From positions 1 to 29,387 of the IMG/VR virus record IMGVR_UViG_3300024517_000084: 29,387 bases of DNA. One strand, given 5' to 3'. The position numbers and the translations under genes are program-made. The DNA comes from a virus. Below the pieces are notes generated by a model. It did not search any database. It was given only the letters and a program-made list of their open reading frames with translations, and was not told where the DNA came from. Shown here piece after piece: positions 2,667 to 29,387 of this stretch; position 1 is the stretch's first letter; each line of letters begins with the position of its first letter.

Positions 2667-3962
2667 ATGACTAATTATGAAATAGAAGAAACACTACTAG
2701 GCAAACTAATAGTAGAAAAAGAAGTATATGATAAATATGCTAATGTTATACATGAAGGATTATTTAACACTCCATTCCATAAGTCAGTATTTCTAGCGAT
2801 GGAAAAACAAATAGAAAGAGGAGAAACAGTAGACATTTTAACTTTAGGTAAACTTATAAAGGGAGATGATGTAGTCCTAAAACTATCAGAAATAACAGAA
2901 GAAGCATACTCTTTTACAGAGGCTAAGACTTGTATTGCAATCTTAACTGAAGAATTTCAAAAGAGAATTTTGCTTGGTATTGTTTCTGACGTAAACAATC
3001 AACTCACAGAAAGAGAAGAATTAGAAGTTATAATAGGAGGTATGGAAAAACAAATCTCTAAACTTAATCTATCTAAAGGAGAGGAGCTTGCTGATCTTAA
3101 AAAACAATTAAGATTAATGCTCGATGATATTCAAGTAAGAATGAATACTGAGGGACTTATGGGAGCCCCAACAGGATTTAAAGAAATTGACAGATTTACA
3201 GGAGGTTGGCAAGAAACTGACCTTATAATTGTAGGAGGCGCTTCATCTATGGGTAAAACAAGCTTTGCTTTAGCACTAGCGCTTAACGCTGCTAAGTATG
3301 GCGATGTACCTACAGTTATATTCTCTTATGAAATGAGTAGCTTACAGCTGTTAAAAAGATTAATCTCTGTAGAATCAGAAGTTAGTAATAACTATATAGC
3401 AAACGGAACTCTTAATGATGAAGAATTAAGAAGAATACATGATGCTACCGCAACAATAGAAAGCATACCTATTAATATAGATGAATGTAATCTTACATCT
3501 TTAAATTATTTAGTGTACAGAATCAAAGAATATGTTAAAAATAAAGGTGTTAAGATAGTTATGGTAGATTATCTTCAATTAGTTTCATATACATCTAAAG
3601 GATTATCTAGAGAGCAAGAAGTTAGCAAGGTTGCTAGAAAATTAAAAAACCTAGCTAAAGAACTTAGTATAACTATTATTGCATTAAGTCAGCTTAATAG
3701 AGGTGTAGGCATGAGAAACAATAGCAAGCCAACATTATCAGACCTTAGAGAGTCTGGCGAGATAGAACAAGCAGCAGATGTAGTTATGTTAATCTACAGA
3801 CCTGAATACTACGGATTAGAATATGATGATAATGGTAACAATTCAAAAGGTATTGCTAGTATTATATTTGCTAAGGGTAGAAACATCGGTGTAGGCGAAA
3901 TAACACTGAAATTTATAAGTGAATTAACTAAATTTGAAGATTATGAAAAAGACTATTCTTAA
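2667..3962 (+). CDS. dnaB: Replicative DNA helicase, DnaB family
   Basis: A 431-residue DnaB-type hexameric helicase that unwinds DNA at the phage replication fork. The N-terminal DnaB_N region spans about residues 5-65. The linker TGFKEIDRFTGG (169-180) leads into the RecA-like core. Walker A is GASSMGKTS (191-199, K197, T198), the catalytic Glu lies in SYEMSS (E222), and Walker B is VMVDYLQLV (D301). The SQLNR motif (341-345) and SDLRESGEIEQAADVV (358-373) are typical of the DnaB C-terminal domain, as is the basic AKGRNIG near 402-408. The length is close to the family norm and no motif is missing. It is the only replication-fork enzyme recognised in the window. Its end overlaps the next small gene by 20 bases. 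Confidence 0.96.
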   Translation: MTNYEIEETLLGKLIVEKEVYDKYANVIHEGLFNTPFHKSVFLAMEKQIERGETVDILTLGKLIKGDDVVLKLSEITEEAYSFTEAKTCIAILTEEFQKRILLGIVSDVNNQLTEREELEVIIGGMEKQISKLNLSKGEELADLKKQLRLMLDDIQVRMNTEGLMGAPTGFKEIDRFTGGWQETDLIIVGGASSMGKTSFALALALNAAKYGDVPTVIFSYEMSSLQLLKRLISVESEVSNNYIANGTLNDEELRRIHDATATIESIPINIDECNLTSLNYLVYRIKEYVKNKGVKIVMVDYLQLVSYTSKGLSREQEVSKVARKLKNLAKELSITIIALSQLNRGVGMRNNSKPTLSDLRESGEIEQAADVVMLIYRPEYYGLEYDDNGNNSKGIASIIFAKGRNIGVGEITLKFISELTKFEDYEKDYS

Positions 3963-4135: not shown

Positions 4136-4366
4136 ATGGGAATATTAACAGTAGCAGGATTTACCGCAATAGGATATTATATAATATTGCACAAAATACT
4201 AGGAAGAAAAACTCTAGTAAAAACACAAACCATTTGGGATTTAGTATTCACTATAGGGATACCTATTTTATTTATAGGAACATTTAGTGGACTAGCAACA
4301 GCAGTGATAGCGGGAGTAATATTCTCCTTGCTCACTGCAATAACACCAAAGCCTGATGGAAAATAA
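4136..4366 (+). CDS. Small membrane protein (76 aa; alternative start 4085)
   Basis: The product is hydrophobic, with a first membrane helix near its start (GILTVAGFTAIGYYIIL), a basic loop (KILGRKTLVK), and two further hydrophobic stretches around FTIGIPILFIGTF and TAVIAGVIFSLL, so two or three transmembrane helices. I prefer ATG 4136 because the candidate promoter at 4084-4114 would start transcription upstream of it. A TTG at 4085 would give a 93-residue form that overlaps the previous gene. No family recognised. The stop lies inside the next gene (11-base overlap). Confidence 0.55.
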   Translation: MGILTVAGFTAIGYYIILHKILGRKTLVKTQTIWDLVFTIGIPILFIGTFSGLATAVIAGVIFSLLTAITPKPDGK

Positions 4367-4589
4367 AAGTAATAGATCATATTTAAAAGATATTGTAAAT
4401 GAAATATCTCACGATCTAGGAATAAATAAATCTGTTGTAAAGAAAGTATTAACAGAAGCGTTTAAAGAGATTGCTTTAATACTAATCCTTAAAGGAAAAC
4501 CTGTAATGATTAGAAGATTTGTAAAATTTGTAGTTGCATTAAAGACTATAAAAATAATTAAAGAACAATTAGAGAGTAAAGAAAAATGA
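4356..4589 (+). CDS. Truncated HU/IHF-like protein (77 aa)
   Basis: Residues about 10-60 follow the N-terminal half of bacterial HU/IHF. There is KDIVNEISHDLGINKSVVKK (two helices with the family's xIGLSK-type turn), then an amphipathic helix, then KGKPVMIRRFVKFVV, which corresponds to the HU segment with the GxFGxF strand. The long beta-arm that wraps DNA in HU is missing and is replaced by a Lys-rich helix. It may dimerise like HU but bind DNA differently. It is embedded by overlaps between a membrane protein and the Rad52-like gene (ATGA). Confidence 0.55.
   Translation: MENKSNRSYLKDIVNEISHDLGINKSVVKKVLTEAFKEIALILILKGKPVMIRRFVKFVVALKTIKIIKEQLESKEK

Positions 4590-8297: not shown

Positions 8298-8314
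<17 letters not shown>
8033..8314 (+). CDS. Small protein upstream of the chaperonin genes, unknown (93 aa)
   Basis: Overlaps DUF3310 by ATGA and the GroES gene by 17 bases, so it is translationally coupled to the chaperonin pair. The product has an amphipathic N-terminal helix, an EEQIWCIIKPY strand, a central basic and charged segment (REYKVQRRSPDEENYPDH), and a VYLMIPTNIVESIDRRKFI end. No known family, membrane segment or catalytic motif is seen. Confidence 0.65.
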
Positions 8315-10280
<1,966 letters not shown>

Positions 10281-16920: not shown

Positions 16921-19900
16921 TTATCTTGCAGTCTCATCTGAAACATTTCCTGATTTACCTCCAGAATAAACGATATTAGCTATATCTTTTTTAAATTCCC
17001 CATAAGGAGTTACATCATACCTAAAAGTTTTAATAGCCTTAGAGTCTCCTGCATCACCATAAGGGCCTTTACGTTTAATCTCATCACCTCTTAATGCTTG
17101 AGCAAAACCATCAATAGTATTATTGAATGTGCTTATAGAGGAAGGAGGGACTCTATATTGTAAGAATCTTCTAACATCTGTTGTGGCAAAGATATCGGCC
17201 TGCAACTTCTTCATATATTTAACAGTCATTCCATATTGCTCATCATCATCACCCTCAGACATTGCAATTAAAGCCATTAAAGTTAATCCTAACGATACTC
17301 CACGTAAATAGTTTCTCATTTCCTCTTGTCTTTTAGGACTACTTTTATGGTATTCCTCTACTATAGACTGTAAGGATAACTCACCTTTATTAAATTTACG
17401 GAATAACTCATTAACATAAGCACCAGCAGCTCTATAAGAACCAACCTCAACTTCACCAAATCTATTGATATTTTCTTTTTGAAATCTATCTGCAATTAAT
17501 GTTACAAACCATTTCTTAAATTGTAATAATGATCTACCCCATGAATACATAGATAACATTCTTTGATCTAAAGCAGTGTACCCTTCACCATGTAATGTAG
17601 ATATCTTATGTCCTATTCCTCTAACTCTTTCGTCAGAAACAATACCAGTATTAAATTCTTCTTCAGTAAGCATTCCTAAGAAAGCAGACCCTTGAATATA
17701 ATGCTCTGTTTGATCCATAAATACAAATGATGCTTTTTCAACTTTACCCCAAACACCCTTAGCTTCTGATAAATGAACGAACTCATCAAAGCTATATTCT
17801 ATAATCCTATGTTTCTTAAGAATCTCTCTTGATTTTTTCCAGTGTTTCCAGAACCTAGTTTCACCTTTAATAAATTGTTTACCACCTCTCTTACGAAGTT
17901 CTTGGTATTTACCAGCAAGCATATTTCCTACACCTACACTTATATTAAATCCAAGTAGTCGTAAGGATGTGAGTCTTACAAATGTATCAATAATCTTATC
18001 AGCTTTTTTACCAAACACACTTTCTTGTTTTTTCTTTTCTAAGAAACTGTCCTTCCACCACTTAGTTAAATATTCAGCAGCATTAGGATTGTCTAGATTT
18101 TTATTGAAAGCAATAGCAGCATCTGTTAAGATAGCTAGATTTTTCATACCCTGGAATCCATCAGAAGACTGCTCTCCATCTTTAAATAATTTAGCTCTTG
18201 TAAATTCTAATAAAGAAGTGTGAATATCTCCAGAGAAATAAAACATGTCTTCACGTTTTCTTCTTACATATTCTTCAGCAACCTCTTTGTCTATGTCAGA
18301 CATATCACCACCTTCACCCCATATCTCAGAAAAACGTTTGCCATTACCTATTAAAGCATCCATCTCATTATTAGATAATAATATCTTACTACCATCTTCA
18401 TGCTTACCTAAAGGCTTAAGCTCCTTAGCTTTTTTACGAAGTGCTGTAAGCTCCATTATCTCTTTACCATTAACAGTGAATCCTTTTGTTCTGTTATTGT
18501 AAATATACACCTTCCATTCATGGAATGTTTTTAATTGCTTAGAGCCGTCTTTATCTGTACCAAAGACTTTAACACCGTGATAATCGTGATCATCTATACT
18601 TAGATTATATAAACCTAACAGCCCACTCTTACCAAGAGACTCAAGCTCCTGCATAGGAAGTCCTTCAAATTTATAATCATTTTTACCTACTAATGATCTT
18701 ACTACAGCCCTATAGTTAGAATAATAATCTTGCTCTTCTTTAGATAAACTATCCCAAATAGAGGCAATCTCATCTGAAGTTTTTAATCTATACCTACCAT
18801 TTCTCTCTACAGTAATATTACCGTATATTAATTTATACTTATCATTTATATTAAGAGCTTTTTTAATCCTCTCTATAAGAGATAAAGATTTCATTTTAGA
18901 CTTAACTAATGCTTTGTGAGATCCACTAACATATGACTTATGCTTTTTAAAGCTCCTCATATATTTCATGTATTCTTTTTCAGCTTGATTAATAAGATAC
19001 TGCATTTCAGGTCTCTTAGATGTCATGTTATTAGCACCCATCCATTTCCTGTAATTAGATATATCCTCTTGAGGAACTCCGTCTTCACCAGGGATATTAT
19101 AATCATGACCTTGTTCCTTTCCTTTTTGTTTTAAGAAATCTGCTTGCTCTTGGAACATTCTTTGTCCAATCTCAGATTCTAAAGTGTAAGCAAGTTGTTT
19201 AGTAGCAGAATTATCCATCTTTCTAAGATTAGCTACAGACTCCATTAATTTATTTAATGTTATATTAGACAGTCCCATCTTAAGTATCTTAGCTTTATAA
19301 GACTCTACTAATTTATGATCAGCTTTATATTCAGCATATCTATGTTGTAAGCTATTATATGTATTAGACTTAGGTTCTATTTTAGATAAATCAATTCCTT
19401 TATCCATAGACCAGTCAGAGAAACTAAGTAATTTATTTTCTTCTTTTAAATGAGATGTACTATGAATAGACTTTTTAGCATTAATAATCTTTTTAGCTTT
19501 CTTGATAGTTCTATCCTTCTTACCAGATTCTTTAATCTGATCCTCTAAAGATTTTTTATCTTTATTCTGAGTGATTTCTACAATAGCACTTTCTAATTCA
19601 TTAGTTATAAGTCCAGCTTTTTCAGCTTGCTTAGTTTGATTCTCTTCAATAATAGTAGCAATACCTCTGTTTATTCTATCAATCATATTTTGATCAAAGA
19701 AAGGGATTATAGACACACCAGATAATCCAAATTTATTTATCTCCTGCTCTACAAGTAATAAGGTATTTTGAGCATCTTCATCTAATTCGCTAAAGCTATC
19801 TTGAATCTGCTTAATCTTCTTTAATGAAGTTAATTCATTTATCTCAACCTTATTAATAGTTATGGCGGTAGTGCCATTTTTACGCTGTCTTAATTCTAAA

Positions 19901-22900
19901 ACTTTATCTACAAGTAGATTATCAGGAAAATCAACTTTCATTTGCTGTAAGTCTTCAGCTAATAATTCAGCAGAACTTGTACCTATAGCAACCTTTAACC
20001 TTGATGTTATATCGTTATATATAACTTGATTAATAATCTGAGATTTAAGATGTTTAATTTTTGGCTTAGACCTATTCGCCTGCTTGTCATTTAATCTTTC
20101 AACAGCATTTTCTGTAGATAATATACTCTGCATGTAAGGAGTAAATCTAATGTCAGTTCTTTGGGATCTACTAAGCATAGAGTCAAATAATTCTAAAGCA
20201 TGCGTTACAATAGGGTTATTCGCACTATCACCTATTTTATATTTAATCTCTAACTGACCTCCTAATTCTACAACTTCATTAGATATTCTTTTAATATCAT
20301 CTCGGATAACTTTTAATTCTAAAGGATTCTTTTCTATAGACTGGTGTATAGTAAATGCTTTAGAGAATGGTCTAATCACATCATTATTCCATTGGTCTAA
20401 AGTATATATCATTAATAGTGCATCTAGTTGAGCATTATTTAATTTCTTATTATTATTACCTAAAAGAGAAGTGTTAATAGATAGACCATCGTCAATTCTA
20501 TTTCTAATTTTATTCCATTTTCTTTGATCGTGGATTATATGCCCTTTATTACTTATTGTTGTTAGGTCAATACCTTCTGATTTTAGAAATTCTATAAAAA
20601 CACTAAATTGATTATCTTGTTTATTATTATAACGAGTATTAATATCATGTTCTTTAGATATAAAGGTTTTACCTCTACTCTTCTTAAATTCAATATATCT
20701 CTTAATAACTGGAGAGTTAAATATAACAGCTAATTGATCTAAAGAATAACCAAGTCTTCTTAATAATACATAAGGAAATACTGTATGTTTGTTTAATCCT
20801 AACTTTGAAGCATACTGATGTTTTGCATTATCAAGCACTATATTTAATAGCTGAGCAGCACCATACCAGTTACCTCCATTCTCTCCTTCAAGAGAAGCGT
20901 CATCAAACATAGTTGTTATTTCTTTACCATTAACATGTTTGTTATTATCTATCCTTAATCCTAACGGAAGTCTCTCGTTGTTATTAGATAAAATATTAAA
21001 TGATCTTTGTAGCGAAGCTACCATACCAACTAAATGCTTAGCAGGGACATTATTGTCAAACATCTCAGCATCTCCCCATGGAGTTAATTGAGAGCTTTCT
21101 TTTTCATTTATAGATAATGGCTCTAAAGCTTTTTCAGCTGAATCAACAAAATCAATATCAGCTTTAATTTCATTACCTTTAGTGGGATTACTAACAAGAC
21201 TCACATATAAATCAAAGAACTCATTAGACTTAGATTTCCATGCATTCTTTTTGCCCTTCATATCTTGTTCGCTCCATTTGAAATTCATATGAACTGAATC
21301 ACCATCTAAATCTGCACCCCAATATTTACTAACCCACGCAGGGATAGTTACATTAGAAGTAGGAGTACCTTCTATTTGCTCGTTAAAATCTTTAACTATA
21401 AATACCGTGGAGAGTGCTTTACCATGAGCAGGAACTCTTGTTCCTATAAATAAGTCTCCAACCTCTACTCCTTGTTTTTCTAAATATCCAGGAACATAAG
21501 ATTCTGATACTAACGTGTTAGGATTTTCATTAAACAACTCACCAAGCTTTAAGGCAAACTGACGATCTTTGTCGGTTTTAATCTCACCTTTATATTTACC
21601 ATTTTCAAAATAATCAGAAACTTTCTGATAAGACTGAAGTCCCATTCCTAAATCAGAAGATTGATAACCAATACTTCCTTTAGTAAACATCTTAGTACCC
21701 TTATTTATAATACGTCCATTAGCTACAGAATTATGTACAGGATTTAAGAAAGGATATCTTGGATCTACATTACCATATACAGACTCTGTTAATACACCAA
21801 ACACTTCTGGTGAAATAGAAGATTTAAAAGAGTCCTCTTCATTCATAACATCTTGCTCTGTTAGATTTTCTTTAAGAGCTAATCCTTCATTACGTAACAT
21901 ATTATTATCCTCCATCACTTCTTTACGAAGTTGATACATTCTTTGAACTATAGCAGACTCATCTTTAGATATGTTTGTTGCTAAGTTGTAGAATAATTGA
22001 GAAGGATAGAATCTTTCATTAGCTTGTTTATCTAATTCTAATTGAATACCTAGACCTTCACCAGAAAGACCATGATACTTTCTTATCTCATCTTCTAACC
22101 CACCTTCAAAATATAATTCGTCTTGTTTAGAGTTTATGTTGTCAATATCTACATCTCCTAGAATATCGTGTATATGATCATTAGAGCGTACTCCATCAAA
22201 ATCTTTAAATAGTTTTGCTGCTGATTCAGACGCTGCAATAATAAGGCCGCCATGATTAAATATACTATGATGATCTTCATTAAAGTCTTTTATGGTTGAT
22301 TGAGAAATATGCTTATGTCTTGCTCTCATTACATCTGCTATCTTTTTTAACTCTGGACTTTTAGATTCCATGTCAGGAGTTAATACATGAACAGCAAATT
22401 TAAGGTAAGTTGTTTTTCCTTTAAGAGTAGGATTATCTACTTCAGTGTAATGATATACAAATTTAAATACACTACCAACCTTCTGAACAGAACCATACTT
22501 ATTAGTTATAGCTTTAGCTTGTTCTGGCAAAATATACCCCATAGCGTCATTAGCAATAGCAGTGTCATTACTTTCCTTTATAGTAAGTTTACCATCTTTA
22601 TATACAAAATAATCTTTAAATATAATAGGCTCTACTTTAGTATTTCTATCAAATACAGTGTGACTCGCTATAGCCCCAGCAGCTCTTTTAGTATAATCAA
22701 TCTCATTCTTTGATTGTCTATGATCGTGTACAAGTGCTTGTTGCGCCATAAATCTATTTGAGATATATGATGTAAGGAACATAGATAGTCTTTTATCTGT
22801 CTCACCTTTCATAATAGCAATATCTCTATTACCTCTATATAAAGAAGGGTTCTTAGCCATATGAGATTTAAACTCCTTAACAAGATCTTTTATTTCAACT

Positions 22901-25900
22901 ATATAATAATTTCCTTTAGCGTCAGTTTCTATAGTGTAAGGGAATATTTCTTGTTTATCTTTTCCTGTATATTTAGCATTATAAGCAGGATTATTTTTAA
23001 CTCTTCTTAATAAAGCATTAGCCGTTTCTTTATTATGAGCAGCAGGAGCCTCTATATAATACCTCCTTCCTTTGTCTGAGAATACAGCTATAGGTTGGTT
23101 ATACATAATAACCCTATCACTATTCTTAATTCCTTTATTTAATCTACTAAGGAAACCAAAGAAATCAGAGGCCATTAATTCAGAAGGTTCTATATTAGAA
23201 ATAGTAGACGCTAACTTATCTTCAGATCCTCTCTCTAATGTATTCATAAGAGATCTCATAAAGCCTTGCTGTATAGTTATTCCTAAAGGATTGTATTCGT
23301 TTAATTTACCAGACTGTCTTTTAGATATGATTATTTCAGAGAAGATATTATTCTTACGATGTAAGATACTTTTCTTATCCATAGAGTCTGCATCTTTAGT
23401 TGATGCTACTAAATTCTTTACACTATTATGTAATCCATTCTCTTTATTAAATATACTAATACCATCTTGCTCTACATTATCCACCATAGATAAGTAGTTT
23501 TTAGGTCTAGATAAAACTAATCCTTCTGTAATGATTGATTTTAATAATGATTGACTACCACCAAACAAACCACTCTCTATCTTTACAGACTTACCTTTAG
23601 ATTTAACTTTACTCTCTATAGCCCACTTACCAGACTTTTGTATTAAAGCATAGTTAGATAATTGAACGTTAGTCCATTTCTTGCCATATCTTTCATGTTT
23701 TACAATCTTATGGTCAAATAAAATATCTCTAAGAAACTGTTGCTTACCTTTATATAGTATAGGGGTTGTTGCTAATTTCTTAATATCTATTAATCCTGCT
23801 TTAGCAGATTTGCTTAATACTACTCTTAAAACATCTTCAGCGGCATTCTGTTTATTTATAATATCGTCTGGATTGTCTTTAAATAACTTATCGTATATAG
23901 CAGCCACTTCTTCAAACACCTCTTTGTCATTTTTAACAGATTCTTTAATATCTTGTATGGCATTATTTTCTAAAGAAGAACTAATAGTTCTTTCTTGAGA
24001 CCAGAAGTGATCTGACTCTTTATCAAATTTCATAAGTACAGAATGACCATAAGTCTCTATATTTATTCCTTCAAATATTCCTTTCAATTCCATTAACTTA
24101 GCATCTGTCAATGCTGACTTACCTTCAAACACCTCATTATCAAGAACTTCTAACATTGCTTTAATATTGTGGTCATTAGAATTTCTTAGAGCTGGTATAA
24201 AGTTGTAAGGATCATACATCATATTTTTAGATATAGTGTATAATTGATATTGTAATTCTTTAAGATTAAGAGATAACTTATTCTTATTGTTATATATTTC
24301 TCTTATCTTTTTAAGGAAGTGAGTTGTTGTTTTAGGCATCGCTACAATACGCTCTTCCTCAATATACTTATCAGCTTCTGTTTCTAAAAAGTCATCTTCA
24401 TTCTTTACATCATAACCTAACTTAGAAAGGATTTTATCCATTTTAGAATCAGCCGCTTTAATTTCTTTTAAGCTATGGTTTTGTGTAGCAACCACCTCTA
24501 CATATTGTCTTATCTTAGCTACTTCGTCTTCAGATAACATATGATCATTTGTCATTTTAGAAACCACACTATCAGCCATCTCAGATGGAGTTAAGTTTCT
24601 ACCAGCAATATCACCTAAATAAGAATATACTAAAGAGAATCCTGTCATCTTTCTAGCTTTAGATGCTTTCTTTATAATACCATTAGCAGAGTTTTCTACC
24701 TTTCTATTACCAGAATTAAAGTCTAACAGAACATGCTTAATAGCAGCTTCTAATGTTAAGTCTTTAATATTCTCATCACTTAATTGTAGCATTTTTTCAG
24801 CTTCTTCTTTAGTGGCAAGATTCTTAGTTTCTTTATAAAACTCCATAAGATCAGATTTTAACTGAGCTTGTGCATCGGTGTTTTCTATAATAGAGTCTAG
24901 CGTTCCATATGAGAATGCTTCTAATGTACGTGTAAATGTTTCCTCTAATAAATGTATCTGTCTATCAGATCTTACTTCTTTAACTCCAGCGTCTTTTAAT
25001 TGAACTCTAAGTGAATTAAATAATTCATTCATTTTAGAACCATCTTTACCTTCAGCTTTATTAAGCTCTAAAACTATACTCAATAAATCACTTTCAATTT
25101 TTGAATTATGATTCATATCGTTTTTAATGATATTATATATCTGGCCTAATGTAACCTTCTGTCCTGCATAATTCATTAATATAAGCTCAGGGTATTCTCT
25201 TTTAGTTCTACTATATAAGTCTGTTTTATATAAAAGTTTATTTATCCTTTTCATTAAAGGAGTTCCTTGATGTATATGGTAAAAAACATGACCTAATTCA
25301 TGTATTAAATCAGTTTGCTTATAACCTTCTTCATTAATAAGAACAGTACCACCTATAGCTAAGGCAACAGATTCTTGCCCAAAATCATCCATTAATTTAG
25401 ACGATATAATAAACCCTCTCTTTCCAGGGAATTTTTTAGAAACTATACTTTGTGTTAATGCTGCTGGGCCAAATCCAGAATGTGTGTAATATTCTAAATA
25501 GAAATCTCCCATAGGGAAGTCTGAAGACTTAACATCACCATCAAATGAATTTGATAGATGTTTATCTAAACGACTAACAGCATCTTTAATTGAATCTTTT
25601 ATTTTACCTAGGGTAGTTCCTTTCTTAGCTTTTTTCTTAGCTTTTGTAAGAGGGGCTTTATAATCTCTGTAATCTATTTGACCAATTACTTTATCTCCAA
25701 TTTTAACCTCTACAATACTTTCATATACAGGAGCGCCTTGTTTAAATTGAAAGTAATATTTACCATTAACTTCTATGACGTTCTTACCGCCTTTAATTGG
25801 ATTTAACAAATGCAATTCAATATCATGCATAGTATCCATATACTTAAGGGCCGCACCATCATGGCTAAAGAATTTAATAGATTTTCCTTTAGATGTTTTT

Positions 25901-28773
25901 AAAGAGTATGTATTATATCCAGTCTCTTTTGATATAACGCTTAGTCCTAATTTTAATGCTCTACCTAGCTTTTTAAGACGTTCCTCTATTTTAGAATATA
26001 CAGTAGTTTTTGGTACTACTTCTGTTTTATCTTTTTTTTTTACAGACTCTGTATCTTGTTCAGACTCAGATTCCGATTCTTTCTTTTTGTTTTCTTCAGC
26101 TTTTTTTTGCTGTAATTCTTTTTTTACCATATCATACTCTTCTTGAGTATAAACATCGTCTCCTTTTCTCTCTTTTATTTCTTTTACAACCTCATCTTTA
26201 CTAACAATAATATTATTTGGATCTGTCTGATCTAAACCACTAAGCTTTTGAAATTTCTTTTTAGATTTTTCTATAGCTTCTTTTACATCTTTATTGTTAA
26301 TGATTTTATCTACACCACTACCAATAATTTTTAATGCAGCTTTAATACCTATTTTGCCAGCCTCTAAAGCTTCTATTAATTTAGCTTTAGCTCCACTAGT
26401 TATTTTTTTGGTATCATAATTTTTAACTTTATCTATAGCTTCTTTAACTTCTTTAGATTCAGTTTTTTCTTTAGCTTTACCAAACAATCCTTTAACTGAG
26501 CTAACAGCTTTGCCAAATGTTTTCTTAGCAAAGTCAGTAACACTATCTATAGTATCAGAAGTTTTATTTTTAGACAAACCTTTGTTTACGAATTTATTAT
26601 CGAATTGATCTAAATATCCTGCGCCATTTTTCTCTTCAACTTTAGCTTTCCATTTTTTAAATGATAATTTAGAGCCAGATAATTTATGTAATTTTTGCTC
26701 TCTCTCTGTTTGGTTCCATTCACCTTTATCTATACGAGACTTTTCTGCGGCTCCTTCTTGAGTGTATAAATCAAATTCCGTTTGAGACATACCTTTAATC
26801 TTATGTCTTTTATCTCTCTTACCAGTAGATTTTGCCGTAGGAGCATTATCTTTTTTACGAGTGTAAATAAACTCCATCTCTTGTCTTAAAGATGATTCTT
26901 CAGATTGCAACATTTCCATAACCGCATCATGCTCTGCTTGATCGCCAGCCAAAGCTTCTTTTAATTTAGTCTCATCTTGGATGATGTCTGCTTTCTTCTT
27001 TTTAACTGCTTCGAAATAATCATTCTGCATTTGTTGTTGCTTACTATTTCTTTTAAGTCTTGTCTCTCTAAAGAACGCTTGCTTAGCTCCAGCTTCTGTG
27101 AGTCCAGTATTAACAGAATGTTTTTCATAACTCATCTCAGCTTCTTCAATAGCTTCTATGTATTGATCGGCAGTCTCTTGAGGCATCTTACCTTCCTCTA
27201 CTTGTGTTTGAACATAAGATTTTAAACCAGAACCATCACCAGAATAATTCCATAATTGTTCTGCTATAATGTTATCCTGAATATACATTTCTGCTTCATA
27301 TATTTCTTCAGGAGTTTTAGCGTCTTGTAATCTTTTAAAGTTATCGTTAAGGTTTTGTGCTTTCTTATTATATAATCTATTTCTTTCGGCAACAGAATCA
27401 AAATAACCTCTAGTACCCCCCATACTACCACCTAAACCTACAGATGACCAAAATATATCCCTAATGTCAGACCTATATTCACCAGCATCATTCTTCACCC
27501 AAGTTAACATAGGCTCATAGTCTAGACCCTTACCTTCTTGAATATTAGTATATTTAATCCATTCTTGATAAACCTCTTGCATACCTTCTTCTATTCCTTC
27601 AAATCCTGCCATTGCTCCAGCAGGAAGAAGATGATTGGATACCTTGGATCCCATGAAATTCATAAGACCTCCTGCACTAGCTTTAAATGGAACTGGCTTA
27701 GGCATTTGTCCTGACATTTTTCTTACCAATGTGTTTTTCCCTAAACCTCCAAACAGCATACCGTTAGATACAATATCTAAAGCCATCCATTTAGCATTAT
27801 CAGTCATTACGCCAGCAGCAATATTAGATGCTTCTTTTGGGGTAAATAAAGGATTACCCTCACCATCTACTTCTGACATCATTTGATTATAAGCTTCTCC
27901 AGATAAATAAGCGCCCTCTGTAAGATTGGCAGCAATACCACCACCAAATATACGAGAATACTTTTCAGCTCCTTTAGTTAACTGGACACCTCCCCTACCT
28001 GCATTATAGAAAGTTGAGCCCATTAGTCCTTTTTTTACATTACCAAACTTAGACATCTTACTAGTAAGTCTAGCACTCTTTAAAGCATGCATACCAAATC
28101 TACCTAATAAACGAGCACCTAAACTTGCACCTCCAGCATAAGGAACTGCAAATGATAATGCATAAGGTAGAAGTCTTGACATTTTAGAAGTATAAAATTC
28201 AGGATTAAATAAATCCGTGAAAGTCATATCCTCTAAATCTTTAGATAGTACAATTAAATTATCATTTTGGAATTTTTCTCCTTCCTTTTTTAGCCAACTA
28301 CCCACTGAAGTTGTAGGCTCAACCTCTCCAGGTGTAACCCATGCTGATATAAAATCAATAGTATCACCAGTACCATAAACTAAGTCTCCCCATCCATGAG
28401 CAAAACCTCTAGCTGCTTGCTGTCCGTAATCACCAATAACAGCATTAGGGTCTAAAATCTCTCCTTGACCGTACTGAGTTTGATCTGCAACCTGATTACG
28501 CGCATCACCCATTTGTCTAGCACCTCTACCTTGCATAGCTCTATCAAAAGACGTCTCTTCTCTAGTGTCTAAATTACGAATACTAGTAGAGTTAAATATA
28601 TCATCTAATCCTGTAGGAGATTCAGAAGACTCAATAGCGCTAGGAGAATCCATAACGTTATCATATGTTTGTTGAATATCTTGTTCGGCTGATGGTAAAG
28701 CACCAGTTGGTTGAGCTTGACTTTGATTAAGCAACATGTCAAGTCCATCTAAATAATTATTCTTTTCTGCCAT
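16921..28773 (-). CDS. Giant virion protein with two-barrel RNA polymerase motif and zinc metallopeptidase motif
   Basis: A single uninterrupted chain of 3950 residues. The N-terminal 100 are polar and disordered. About 198-225 are hydrophobic (RLLPYALSFAVPYAGG), followed by a helical part with FEGIEEGMQEVYQEW (391-405). A Lys/Glu-rich coiled coil and linker spans about 560-930. HELGH at 1158-1162, with a Glu-rich helix EETFTRTLEAF at 1277-1287, fits a zinc metallopeptidase. R2446-x-P-x-H-G-K, then IPAWVSKYWGADLDGDSVHM with D2488, D2490 and D2492, fits the catalytic loop of the largest subunit in multisubunit RNA polymerases (NADFDGDQM). The C-terminus has hydrophobic parts near 3600-3620 and 3820-3835. 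I infer an injected virion polymerase; other parts are unassigned. Its start overlaps the upstream stop by one base (TAATG). Confidence 0.75.
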   Translation of the reverse strand: MAEKNNYLDGLDMLLNQSQAQPTGALPSAEQDIQQTYDNVMDSPSAIESSESPTGLDDIFNSTSIRNLDTREETSFDRAMQGRGARQMGDARNQVADQTQYGQGEILDPNAVIGDYGQQAARGFAHGWGDLVYGTGDTIDFISAWVTPGEVEPTTSVGSWLKKEGEKFQNDNLIVLSKDLEDMTFTDLFNPEFYTSKMSRLLPYALSFAVPYAGGASLGARLLGRFGMHALKSARLTSKMSKFGNVKKGLMGSTFYNAGRGGVQLTKGAEKYSRIFGGGIAANLTEGAYLSGEAYNQMMSEVDGEGNPLFTPKEASNIAAGVMTDNAKWMALDIVSNGMLFGGLGKNTLVRKMSGQMPKPVPFKASAGGLMNFMGSKVSNHLLPAGAMAGFEGIEEGMQEVYQEWIKYTNIQEGKGLDYEPMLTWVKNDAGEYRSDIRDIFWSSVGLGGSMGGTRGYFDSVAERNRLYNKKAQNLNDNFKRLQDAKTPEEIYEAEMYIQDNIIAEQLWNYSGDGSGLKSYVQTQVEEGKMPQETADQYIEAIEEAEMSYEKHSVNTGLTEAGAKQAFFRETRLKRNSKQQQMQNDYFEAVKKKKADIIQDETKLKEALAGDQAEHDAVMEMLQSEESSLRQEMEFIYTRKKDNAPTAKSTGKRDKRHKIKGMSQTEFDLYTQEGAAEKSRIDKGEWNQTEREQKLHKLSGSKLSFKKWKAKVEEKNGAGYLDQFDNKFVNKGLSKNKTSDTIDSVTDFAKKTFGKAVSSVKGLFGKAKEKTESKEVKEAIDKVKNYDTKKITSGAKAKLIEALEAGKIGIKAALKIIGSGVDKIINNKDVKEAIEKSKKKFQKLSGLDQTDPNNIIVSKDEVVKEIKERKGDDVYTQEEYDMVKKELQQKKAEENKKKESESESEQDTESVKKKDKTEVVPKTTVYSKIEERLKKLGRALKLGLSVISKETGYNTYSLKTSKGKSIKFFSHDGAALKYMDTMHDIELHLLNPIKGGKNVIEVNGKYYFQFKQGAPVYESIVEVKIGDKVIGQIDYRDYKAPLTKAKKKAKKGTTLGKIKDSIKDAVSRLDKHLSNSFDGDVKSSDFPMGDFYLEYYTHSGFGPAALTQSIVSKKFPGKRGFIISSKLMDDFGQESVALAIGGTVLINEEGYKQTDLIHELGHVFYHIHQGTPLMKRINKLLYKTDLYSRTKREYPELILMNYAGQKVTLGQIYNIIKNDMNHNSKIESDLLSIVLELNKAEGKDGSKMNELFNSLRVQLKDAGVKEVRSDRQIHLLEETFTRTLEAFSYGTLDSIIENTDAQAQLKSDLMEFYKETKNLATKEEAEKMLQLSDENIKDLTLEAAIKHVLLDFNSGNRKVENSANGIIKKASKARKMTGFSLVYSYLGDIAGRNLTPSEMADSVVSKMTNDHMLSEDEVAKIRQYVEVVATQNHSLKEIKAADSKMDKILSKLGYDVKNEDDFLETEADKYIEEERIVAMPKTTTHFLKKIREIYNNKNKLSLNLKELQYQLYTISKNMMYDPYNFIPALRNSNDHNIKAMLEVLDNEVFEGKSALTDAKLMELKGIFEGINIETYGHSVLMKFDKESDHFWSQERTISSSLENNAIQDIKESVKNDKEVFEEVAAIYDKLFKDNPDDIINKQNAAEDVLRVVLSKSAKAGLIDIKKLATTPILYKGKQQFLRDILFDHKIVKHERYGKKWTNVQLSNYALIQKSGKWAIESKVKSKGKSVKIESGLFGGSQSLLKSIITEGLVLSRPKNYLSMVDNVEQDGISIFNKENGLHNSVKNLVASTKDADSMDKKSILHRKNNIFSEIIISKRQSGKLNEYNPLGITIQQGFMRSLMNTLERGSEDKLASTISNIEPSELMASDFFGFLSRLNKGIKNSDRVIMYNQPIAVFSDKGRRYYIEAPAAHNKETANALLRRVKNNPAYNAKYTGKDKQEIFPYTIETDAKGNYYIVEIKDLVKEFKSHMAKNPSLYRGNRDIAIMKGETDKRLSMFLTSYISNRFMAQQALVHDHRQSKNEIDYTKRAAGAIASHTVFDRNTKVEPIIFKDYFVYKDGKLTIKESNDTAIANDAMGYILPEQAKAITNKYGSVQKVGSVFKFVYHYTEVDNPTLKGKTTYLKFAVHVLTPDMESKSPELKKIADVMRARHKHISQSTIKDFNEDHHSIFNHGGLIIAASESAAKLFKDFDGVRSNDHIHDILGDVDIDNINSKQDELYFEGGLEDEIRKYHGLSGEGLGIQLELDKQANERFYPSQLFYNLATNISKDESAIVQRMYQLRKEVMEDNNMLRNEGLALKENLTEQDVMNEEDSFKSSISPEVFGVLTESVYGNVDPRYPFLNPVHNSVANGRIINKGTKMFTKGSIGYQSSDLGMGLQSYQKVSDYFENGKYKGEIKTDKDRQFALKLGELFNENPNTLVSESYVPGYLEKQGVEVGDLFIGTRVPAHGKALSTVFIVKDFNEQIEGTPTSNVTIPAWVSKYWGADLDGDSVHMNFKWSEQDMKGKKNAWKSKSNEFFDLYVSLVSNPTKGNEIKADIDFVDSAEKALEPLSINEKESSQLTPWGDAEMFDNNVPAKHLVGMVASLQRSFNILSNNNERLPLGLRIDNNKHVNGKEITTMFDDASLEGENGGNWYGAAQLLNIVLDNAKHQYASKLGLNKHTVFPYVLLRRLGYSLDQLAVIFNSPVIKRYIEFKKSRGKTFISKEHDINTRYNNKQDNQFSVFIEFLKSEGIDLTTISNKGHIIHDQRKWNKIRNRIDDGLSINTSLLGNNNKKLNNAQLDALLMIYTLDQWNNDVIRPFSKAFTIHQSIEKNPLELKVIRDDIKRISNEVVELGGQLEIKYKIGDSANNPIVTHALELFDSMLSRSQRTDIRFTPYMQSILSTENAVERLNDKQANRSKPKIKHLKSQIINQVIYNDITSRLKVAIGTSSAELLAEDLQQMKVDFPDNLLVDKVLELRQRKNGTTAITINKVEINELTSLKKIKQIQDSFSELDEDAQNTLLLVEQEINKFGLSGVSIIPFFDQNMIDRINRGIATIIEENQTKQAEKAGLITNELESAIVEITQNKDKKSLEDQIKESGKKDRTIKKAKKIINAKKSIHSTSHLKEENKLLSFSDWSMDKGIDLSKIEPKSNTYNSLQHRYAEYKADHKLVESYKAKILKMGLSNITLNKLMESVANLRKMDNSATKQLAYTLESEIGQRMFQEQADFLKQKGKEQGHDYNIPGEDGVPQEDISNYRKWMGANNMTSKRPEMQYLINQAEKEYMKYMRSFKKHKSYVSGSHKALVKSKMKSLSLIERIKKALNINDKYKLIYGNITVERNGRYRLKTSDEIASIWDSLSKEEQDYYSNYRAVVRSLVGKNDYKFEGLPMQELESLGKSGLLGLYNLSIDDHDYHGVKVFGTDKDGSKQLKTFHEWKVYIYNNRTKGFTVNGKEIMELTALRKKAKELKPLGKHEDGSKILLSNNEMDALIGNGKRFSEIWGEGGDMSDIDKEVAEEYVRRKREDMFYFSGDIHTSLLEFTRAKLFKDGEQSSDGFQGMKNLAILTDAAIAFNKNLDNPNAAEYLTKWWKDSFLEKKKQESVFGKKADKIIDTFVRLTSLRLLGFNISVGVGNMLAGKYQELRKRGGKQFIKGETRFWKHWKKSREILKKHRIIEYSFDEFVHLSEAKGVWGKVEKASFVFMDQTEHYIQGSAFLGMLTEEEFNTGIVSDERVRGIGHKISTLHGEGYTALDQRMLSMYSWGRSLLQFKKWFVTLIADRFQKENINRFGEVEVGSYRAAGAYVNELFRKFNKGELSLQSIVEEYHKSSPKRQEEMRNYLRGVSLGLTLMALIAMSEGDDDEQYGMTVKYMKKLQADIFATTDVRRFLQYRVPPSSISTFNNTIDGFAQALRGDEIKRKGPYGDAGDSKAIKTFRYDVTPYGEFKKDIANIVYSGGKSGNVSDETAR

Positions 28774-29387
28774 TATGAATTAAAGTGTTTTGTCCAGTCT
28801 CTAGTTCCTTTAACTATATTGTTATAATCTTTCTGACTATATCTACCTTTTAACCAAGCAGCATAAGCTGTAGGGCCTTTTTCAATAGCTTCTTTTAAAC
28901 CAGCATCATTCCCATCTGTTAAAGCTTTTCTAATCATACGAGCTGAAACAGCCATATATTGTCCTGGGCTTTGTACGGTTGTACCATCTTTAAATGTAAA
29001 TGGATATGTTCTTGGTTGTTGCGAATTTACATATAAATTTGACATTATCAAAGGCATTGATGCTTGAATTTTACCTGTTTTTACACCAGCCATTTTTAAT
29101 CCGATAGTCATATTCTCATCATAAGCATTTGCAATAACCTCAAAGTTTTTACTGTCTCCTGCAGCCATTTGCACAGCAAGTTTTTGTTTAGACGCTTCTA
29201 TATTTTTGTTAGTACGAGCTCTTAGTTTAGATTTCTTTTCTAAATCAATTTCTTGACTTCTAGTTCTATCCATTGACTCTTTATCAACAACTTTATTTAA
29301 AGCTTCTGCTATTCTTGGGTTATTAGTATCAATTTCTTTATAGTAATAATCCCCTCCAGTAATAACGTCTCTCTCTACGAATTGAGC
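28773..29387 (-). CDS. Probable virion protein, 5' end outside the window
   Basis: The frame is open to the right edge, so the N-terminus is missing. At least 204 residues are visible. An internal ATG at 29273 would give 166. The part seen is charged and helical (RSQEIDLEKKSKLRARTNKN, KQKLAVQMAAGDSKNFEVIA), with a middle that includes SLPLIMSN-like and PFTFKDGTTVQSPGQYMAV segments, and a C-terminal helical end (AAWLKGRYSQKDYNNIVK). It ends one base into the giant gene, indicating coupled expression. It is probably another internal or ejected virion protein by context; no family recognised. Confidence 0.6.
   Translation of the reverse strand, partial: AQFVERDVITGGDYYYKEIDTNNPRIAEALNKVVDKESMDRTRSQEIDLEKKSKLRARTNKNIEASKQKLAVQMAAGDSKNFEVIANAYDENMTIGLKMAGVKTGKIQASMPLIMSNLYVNSQQPRTYPFTFKDGTTVQSPGQYMAVSARMIRKALTDGNDAGLKEAIEKGPTAYAAWLKGRYSQKDYNNIVKGTRDWTKHFNS

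Follow-up and report, generated by a model that had tools for sequence, protein, structure and literature searches.

The minus strand of the window (the whole 29,387-nucleotide stretch analysed, IMG/VR record IMGVR_UViG_3300024517_000084) encodes a giant protein that, as judged from its sequence, joins a crAss-type RNA polymerase (RNAP), a putative zincin and a gp49/gp65-like C-terminal domain in a single chain. We hold it very probable that this 3,950-aa protein is a crAss-type virion RNA polymerase, which would be packaged, injected and would transcribe early genes. An earlier note on this DNA had proposed a single-chain polymerase like those of crAss-like phages, and this is borne out by colinear profile homology, by a best structural match to 6vr4 (phi14:2 gp66) and by invariant Asp and R-x-P residues. 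The family to which the protein belongs is a new branch, giant RNAP fusions as such being already known.

The reading frame opens with an ATG and is free of internal stops over all 3,950 codons, and complete orthologues measure 3,698-4,100 aa. A hydropathy scan of the window protein found no transmembrane segments. The parts of the gene are listed in Table 1.

Table 1. Giant gene of the window, its predicted parts and its upstream neighbour
Feature	Coordinates	Strand	Description	Basis
Giant gene	16921..28773	-	3,950 aa, about 447 kDa	open frame and orthologues
N-terminal about 1,000 residues	25774..28773	-	conserved in family	family alignment
Putative gluzincin-like metallopeptidase region	24874..25476	-	residues 1100-1300	conserved HExGHxxY and EE
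Predicted RNA polymerase core	20629..22779	-	residues about 1999-2715	hhalign and 6vr4 structure match
Predicted first-barrel region	22294..22776	-	residues 2000-2160	hhalign alignment with phi14:2 gp66
Predicted catalytic loop	21280..21444	-	residues 2444-2498	motif, conservation, structure match
C-terminal domain	17068..18309	-	residues about 3489-3902	blastp, hhalign, HMM
3' part of next upstream gene	28773..29387	-	runs past window edge; 711 aa in G001	

The catalytic loop reads GTRVPAHGK ... WGADLDGDSVHMNF. The residues singled out by the earlier note (R2446, P2448, H2450 and the Asp triad D2488/D2490/D2492) are exact and, together with K2452, map to 21298-21438 on the minus strand, inside the interval it gave. 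The triad is predicted to bind metal within the second barrel. Taken alone, the combined motif is suggestive only, being rare though possible by chance: among 2,000 shuffled versions of the protein, RxPxxG followed by DxDxD within 15-70 residues arose 7 times, and DxDGD occurred at a mean of 0.075 per shuffle. A chance origin within an otherwise unrelated protein could moreover draw on the fact that about one DxDxD is expected at this length and composition. As composition alone leaves the motif possible by chance, independent evidence was sought.

Searches of Pfam, PHROG and PDB sequences with the full protein, family members or profiles returned nothing relevant, and the sequence similarity of the giant to any single known RNAP is very low. 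With residues 2150-2900 as a query, tblastn (E<=10) against 50,697 phages gave 51 records, all of them remote (E 0.1-5) and nearly all Crassvirales RNAPs. Scanning IMG/VR with the single sequence recovered no relatives. These were reached through an alignment of the giant with five crAss-phage RNAPs, which yielded 18 close relatives (44-55% identity) as well as more distant crAss-type giants, and rescanning with the family alignment as query brought the close relatives to 25 contigs (about 21 non-redundant at 97%). Relatives that keep the catalytic residues range down to 37-45% overall identity.

The signature GTR[IV]P[AS]HGK...WGADLDGD[SA][IV]HMNF is kept in 25/25 relatives, each on a separate contig. 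Hence the three Asp and the R-x-P, whose conservation in homologues the earlier note had named as a check, are invariant, and the Leu that it had seen in place of the first Phe of DFDGD recurs in all 25 as DLDGD. Since it is conserved in every one of these relatives, the motif is not a product of chance. The first-barrel KR motif (K2029/R2030) is present in 24 of the 25, the exception (L022) being N-terminally truncated; K2029/R2030 and K2125 align to identical residues of phi14:2 gp66, with K2125 opposite gp66 K1027. These data also bear on the idea that the protein descends from an RNAP but has lost catalysis and serves as an ejection or structural component, its fold being kept for packaging or pore formation. 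A large share of the chain does lie outside the polymerase core, which would suit such a role, but the Asp triad, the R-x-P-x-H-G-K residues and the first-barrel Lys/Arg are invariant, and conservation across the whole-protein family alignment peaks at the catalytic loop. Because loss of catalytic residues would be expected in a dead enzyme, we regard this explanation as highly improbable.

Comparison of a profile of 18 family cores with a profile of 27 crAss-type RNAP cores by hhalign gave a single colinear alignment (probability 99.9, E 4.5e-32, 634 columns) that spans both barrel regions, with the KR/K residues, R-x-P and DxDxD in register. Reversed or column-shuffled controls gave E>0.1, and after deletion of the motif region the E value was still 3.9e-25. 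The motif-deleted comparison rules out a chance motif, to which, given also the fold described below and the invariance in relatives, we attach next to no credence.

We modelled residues 1840-2920 with AlphaFold2, obtaining a model of moderate confidence (mean pLDDT 66.8). Its sole significant Foldseek match in the PDB was 6vr4 (E 1.4e-13), and a structural aligner (VIA) placed it on the same structure with Z 15.0 over 628 residues, followed by QDE-1 (Z 11) and plant RDR2 (about 10). The barrel region of the cellular RNAP beta-prime subunit was matched by model residues 520-700, that is, protein residues 2359-2539. The matches to 6vr4, QDE-1 and RDR2 point to two double-psi barrels in a single chain, a call based on whole-fold alignment of a moderate-confidence model and not on strand-by-strand inspection. 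The structure prediction that the earlier note had suggested as a check for such barrels thus came out with a two-barrel enzyme as its best match. Neither of the outcomes that the note had set against its own reading, a fold without double-psi barrels or homologues lacking the Asp and R-x-P residues, was seen, because the fold matches 6vr4 and the motifs are invariant. Of the traits that define membership in the phi14:2 gp66 family, R-x-P ahead of DxDxD, core-wide homology and a gp65/gp49-type partner were also found.

Another possibility is a two-barrel RNAP of a different lineage (P23-45 gp96-like, YonO-like or host-derived) that was joined to a tail protein. P23-45 gp96 too has an RNAP and a metallopeptidase together on a chain of 5,002 aa (PMC10770324), and its structure (8h2m) is among the matches of our model. 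However, it scores Z 7.4 against 15 for 6vr4, its RNAP is N-terminal whereas that of the window giant lies mid-chain, and the colinear profile homology to crAss RNAPs and the C-terminal gp49/gp65 domain both speak for a crAss-type origin. We therefore consider a different lineage very unlikely.

The C-terminal domain is homologous to the C-terminus of crAss001 gp49 and phi14:2 gp65: hhalign aligned 433 columns at E 4e-20, blastp against a small set gave E 8e-7, and the gp49 HMM matches the family member L022 at E 2e-19. In crAss001 and phi14:2 this protein is encoded beside the catalytic subunit. The polymerase does form part of a far longer chain, as the earlier note had put it, but the rest of that chain is not otherwise unrelated, its C-terminal part being homologous to an RNAP-adjacent crAss protein. 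The same domain was observed in the Leptolyngbya phage Lbo-JY46, which has a cyanobacterial host: a 2,748-aa protein (L011:4531-12777) with two HExxH motifs has a clearly crAss gp49-like C-terminus (E 2.7e-32), and the cargo domain is therefore not confined to Bacteroidota phages. At the other end of the giant, the N-terminal 1,000 residues or so had no matches among the 50,697 phage records; family-profile residues about 169-1072 are also conserved in a distant relative, L102 (HMM match).

The peptidase motif that the earlier note placed about 1,300 residues upstream was located as HELGH at H1158-H1162, 1,330 residues before D2488. It extends to HELGHVFY (1158-1165) and is followed by EE at 1277-1278, a candidate third ligand, so that the segment has the elements of a zincin motif and is probably a zincin. 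HE[x]GH[IVL][WYF]Y is found in 23/23 relatives covering the region, where it precedes the first loop Asp by 1,271-1,368 residues, and the EE is invariant in the alignment. A zincin fold search with an AlphaFold2 model (pLDDT 63.6) returned no significant structural match. Other crAss-type giants carry a HEAFH segment that precedes the RNAP loop by about 1,320-1,790 residues, and hhalign detected no similarity between it and the family HExxH segment. In one giant (L086:4025-16327) the conserved HExxH is preceded, at a distance of about 250 residues, by another (HETIH, residue 1058). In L102 (L102:3818-14675), a giant of at least 3,619 aa with the loop GSDHDGD, the N-terminal region and the polymerase are shared and the available part has no HExxH, and the peptidase-like segment may thus not be essential. 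L102 matches both the window family and crAss-type giants and bridges the two.

A close known counterpart is phi14:2 gp66, a virion component that makes early, rifampicin-resistant transcripts (PMC7886860, PMC10136315). Like it and other Crassvirales RNAPs (crAss001 gp50, CrAssphage ZA, cr128_1), the window giant has a colinear core with R-x-P about 40 residues ahead of DxDxD, a predicted single-chain, two-barrel fold and a gp65/gp49-type partner. Unlike them, it has DLDGD in place of DFD[VI]D, very low pairwise identity, and the partner domain and a zincin-like segment within the chain. The earlier note had known of no such fusion as described. There are precedents: CrAssphage ZA (4,091 aa) and cr127_1 (4,133 aa), like the IMG/VR giants L044 (at least 5,634 aa) and L047 (5,542 aa), fuse the RNAP to a gp49-type domain; cr1_1 of the Suoliviridae (QOR58537, 4,551 aa) has HEAFH 1,444 residues before DFDVD, compared with 1,330 here; P23-45 gp96 of a Thermus phage is a virion chain in which a two-barrel RNAP and a metallopeptidase are fused to the tape measure of a long tail (PMC10770324); and a review of Crassvirales gives RNAP genes of up to about 6,000 aa (PMC10136315). 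Each differs from the window giant. No HExxH was found in-chain in ZA, cr127_1, L044 or L047, the zincin of ZA being on a separate upstream protein; in cr1_1 the gp49-like partner is a separate 2,007-aa protein, and the HExxH segments of the cr1_1 group and the window family have no similarity detectable by hhalign. Among the sequences examined, HExxH, RNAP and gp49-like domain occur in one chain only in the window family. The virion RNAP of coliphage N4 has a T7-like single-subunit polymerase fold and not the two-barrel one. It is likewise a giant (about 3,500 aa), packaged and ejected polymerase chain (PMC12633501). A further long protein, gp33 of Flavobacterium phage Fpv20 (L070:34468-47727; 4,419 aa, annotated as a virion structural protein), shows an RNAP-like RTP...GLDYDID loop with a HEVIH motif C-terminal to it.

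Five related contigs (55-68 kb) share a gene order in which the giant is encoded on the structural strand. In one of them, G001, this order is terminase, portal, capsid, ..., 1,930-aa, 530-aa, 554-aa tail-lysozyme, 711-aa and giant genes, followed by small tail-fibre/lysis-type genes, while replication genes (DnaB, Rad52, PDDEXK and others) are on the opposite strand. The gene directly upstream of the giant has orthologues in 5/5 relatives compared, and its product is probably co-packaged or structural. This setting is relevant to the proposal that the polymerase is active but unpackaged, being made after infection for middle or late genes, for which P23-45, with both virion and non-virion enzymes (PMC10770324), offers a parallel. 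Yet the position on the structural strand, between tail/lysozyme and tail-fibre/lysis-type genes, is that seen in phi14:2, where the annotation records the detection of gp65-gp67 by MS/MS proteomics, and we judge an unpackaged enzyme to be very unlikely.

The relative G001 has a crAss-type capsid (Pfam PF23898 Crass_capsid, E 2.6e-36; outside the window) together with a related portal (phrog_6547, E 3.6e-118) and large terminase (phrog_6681, E 2.2e-90), the combination expected of Crassvirales and one that argues further against a polymerase of another lineage. The best organism-named matches of its terminase, with about 30% identity, are phages of Crassvirales, Suoliviridae among them. A TerL, portal and MCP tree, which is small (12 taxa), unrooted and with long branches, places the relatives between Crassvirales plus Fpv20 and Elemovirus/Pachyviridae. 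End genes of G001 recur at the opposite end with a spacing of about 65.3 kb, suggesting a unit genome of that size; contigs of the relatives reach 50-68 kb, compared with about 83-103 kb for the Crassvirales genomes compared. This phage group with genomes of roughly 65 kb is apparently undescribed. Cultured Flavobacterium elemo phages (60 kb in those examined, with GroEL and a 3,694-aa last structural gene) were considered as relatives and rejected, as the family HMM found no homology and their lone DxDxD has no RNAP context.

GTDB genome contigs scanned with the patterns used contained no relatives and hence gave no pointer to a host; counts in a Bacteroidota promoter scan were close to the shuffled expectation. 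A 780-aa protein of G001 (L052:13530-15872) carries at its C-terminus a sorting domain of the type IX secretion system (PF18962, E 8.6e-7), which points to a Bacteroidota host. The window also encodes GroES (Cpn10, E 3.6e-19) and GroEL (Cpn60, E 2.7e-73) at 8298-10132; GroEL is present in phi14:2 and the elemo phages too, and no homologue was found in the five related contigs compared. A small HU/IHF-like DNA-binding protein (4356-4589; PF00216, E 1.4e-5) is in the replication block; in crAss-like phages IHF is typically in the structural block.

For the virion polymerase that we favour, the analysis shows homology, colinearity, a fold match, invariant catalytic residues and, in relatives, a place in the structural gene block, whereas packaging, ejection, polymerase activity, the early-gene role and peptidase activity are what we infer, the packaged early-gene role by analogy with phi14:2; injection is a reasonable expectation from homology and gene position. 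The chain would be synthesised late, loaded into the head and ejected along with the phage DNA, and its two-barrel core, with Mg2+ on the Asp triad, would then transcribe early (replication) genes independently of the host RNA polymerase. What phi14:2 and crAss001 encode as separate proteins (catalytic subunit and gp65/gp49 partner) is joined in this group, with the upstream segment that bears the probable metallopeptidase, in one chain. More tentatively, and with considerable doubt, the group may have collapsed a multi-protein crAss cargo into a polyprotein of about 450 kDa that is ejected whole and possibly cut by its zincin inside the host, the pieces possibly being polymerase, partner and ejection parts.

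With these results, the range of crAss-type virion polymerases grows to include an apparently undescribed group of phages, which searches of Pfam, PHROGs and PDB sequences do not recognise. The group has a different catalytic loop (DLDGD), an all-in-one architecture and a bridging relative with DHDGD, and it adds new data points to the phylogeny of two-barrel polymerases in the phage/RNAi clade. Furthermore, the giant could serve as a compact model for two questions: how a chain of about 450 kDa is threaded through the tail of a phage, and whether it is processed by the metallopeptidase built into it.
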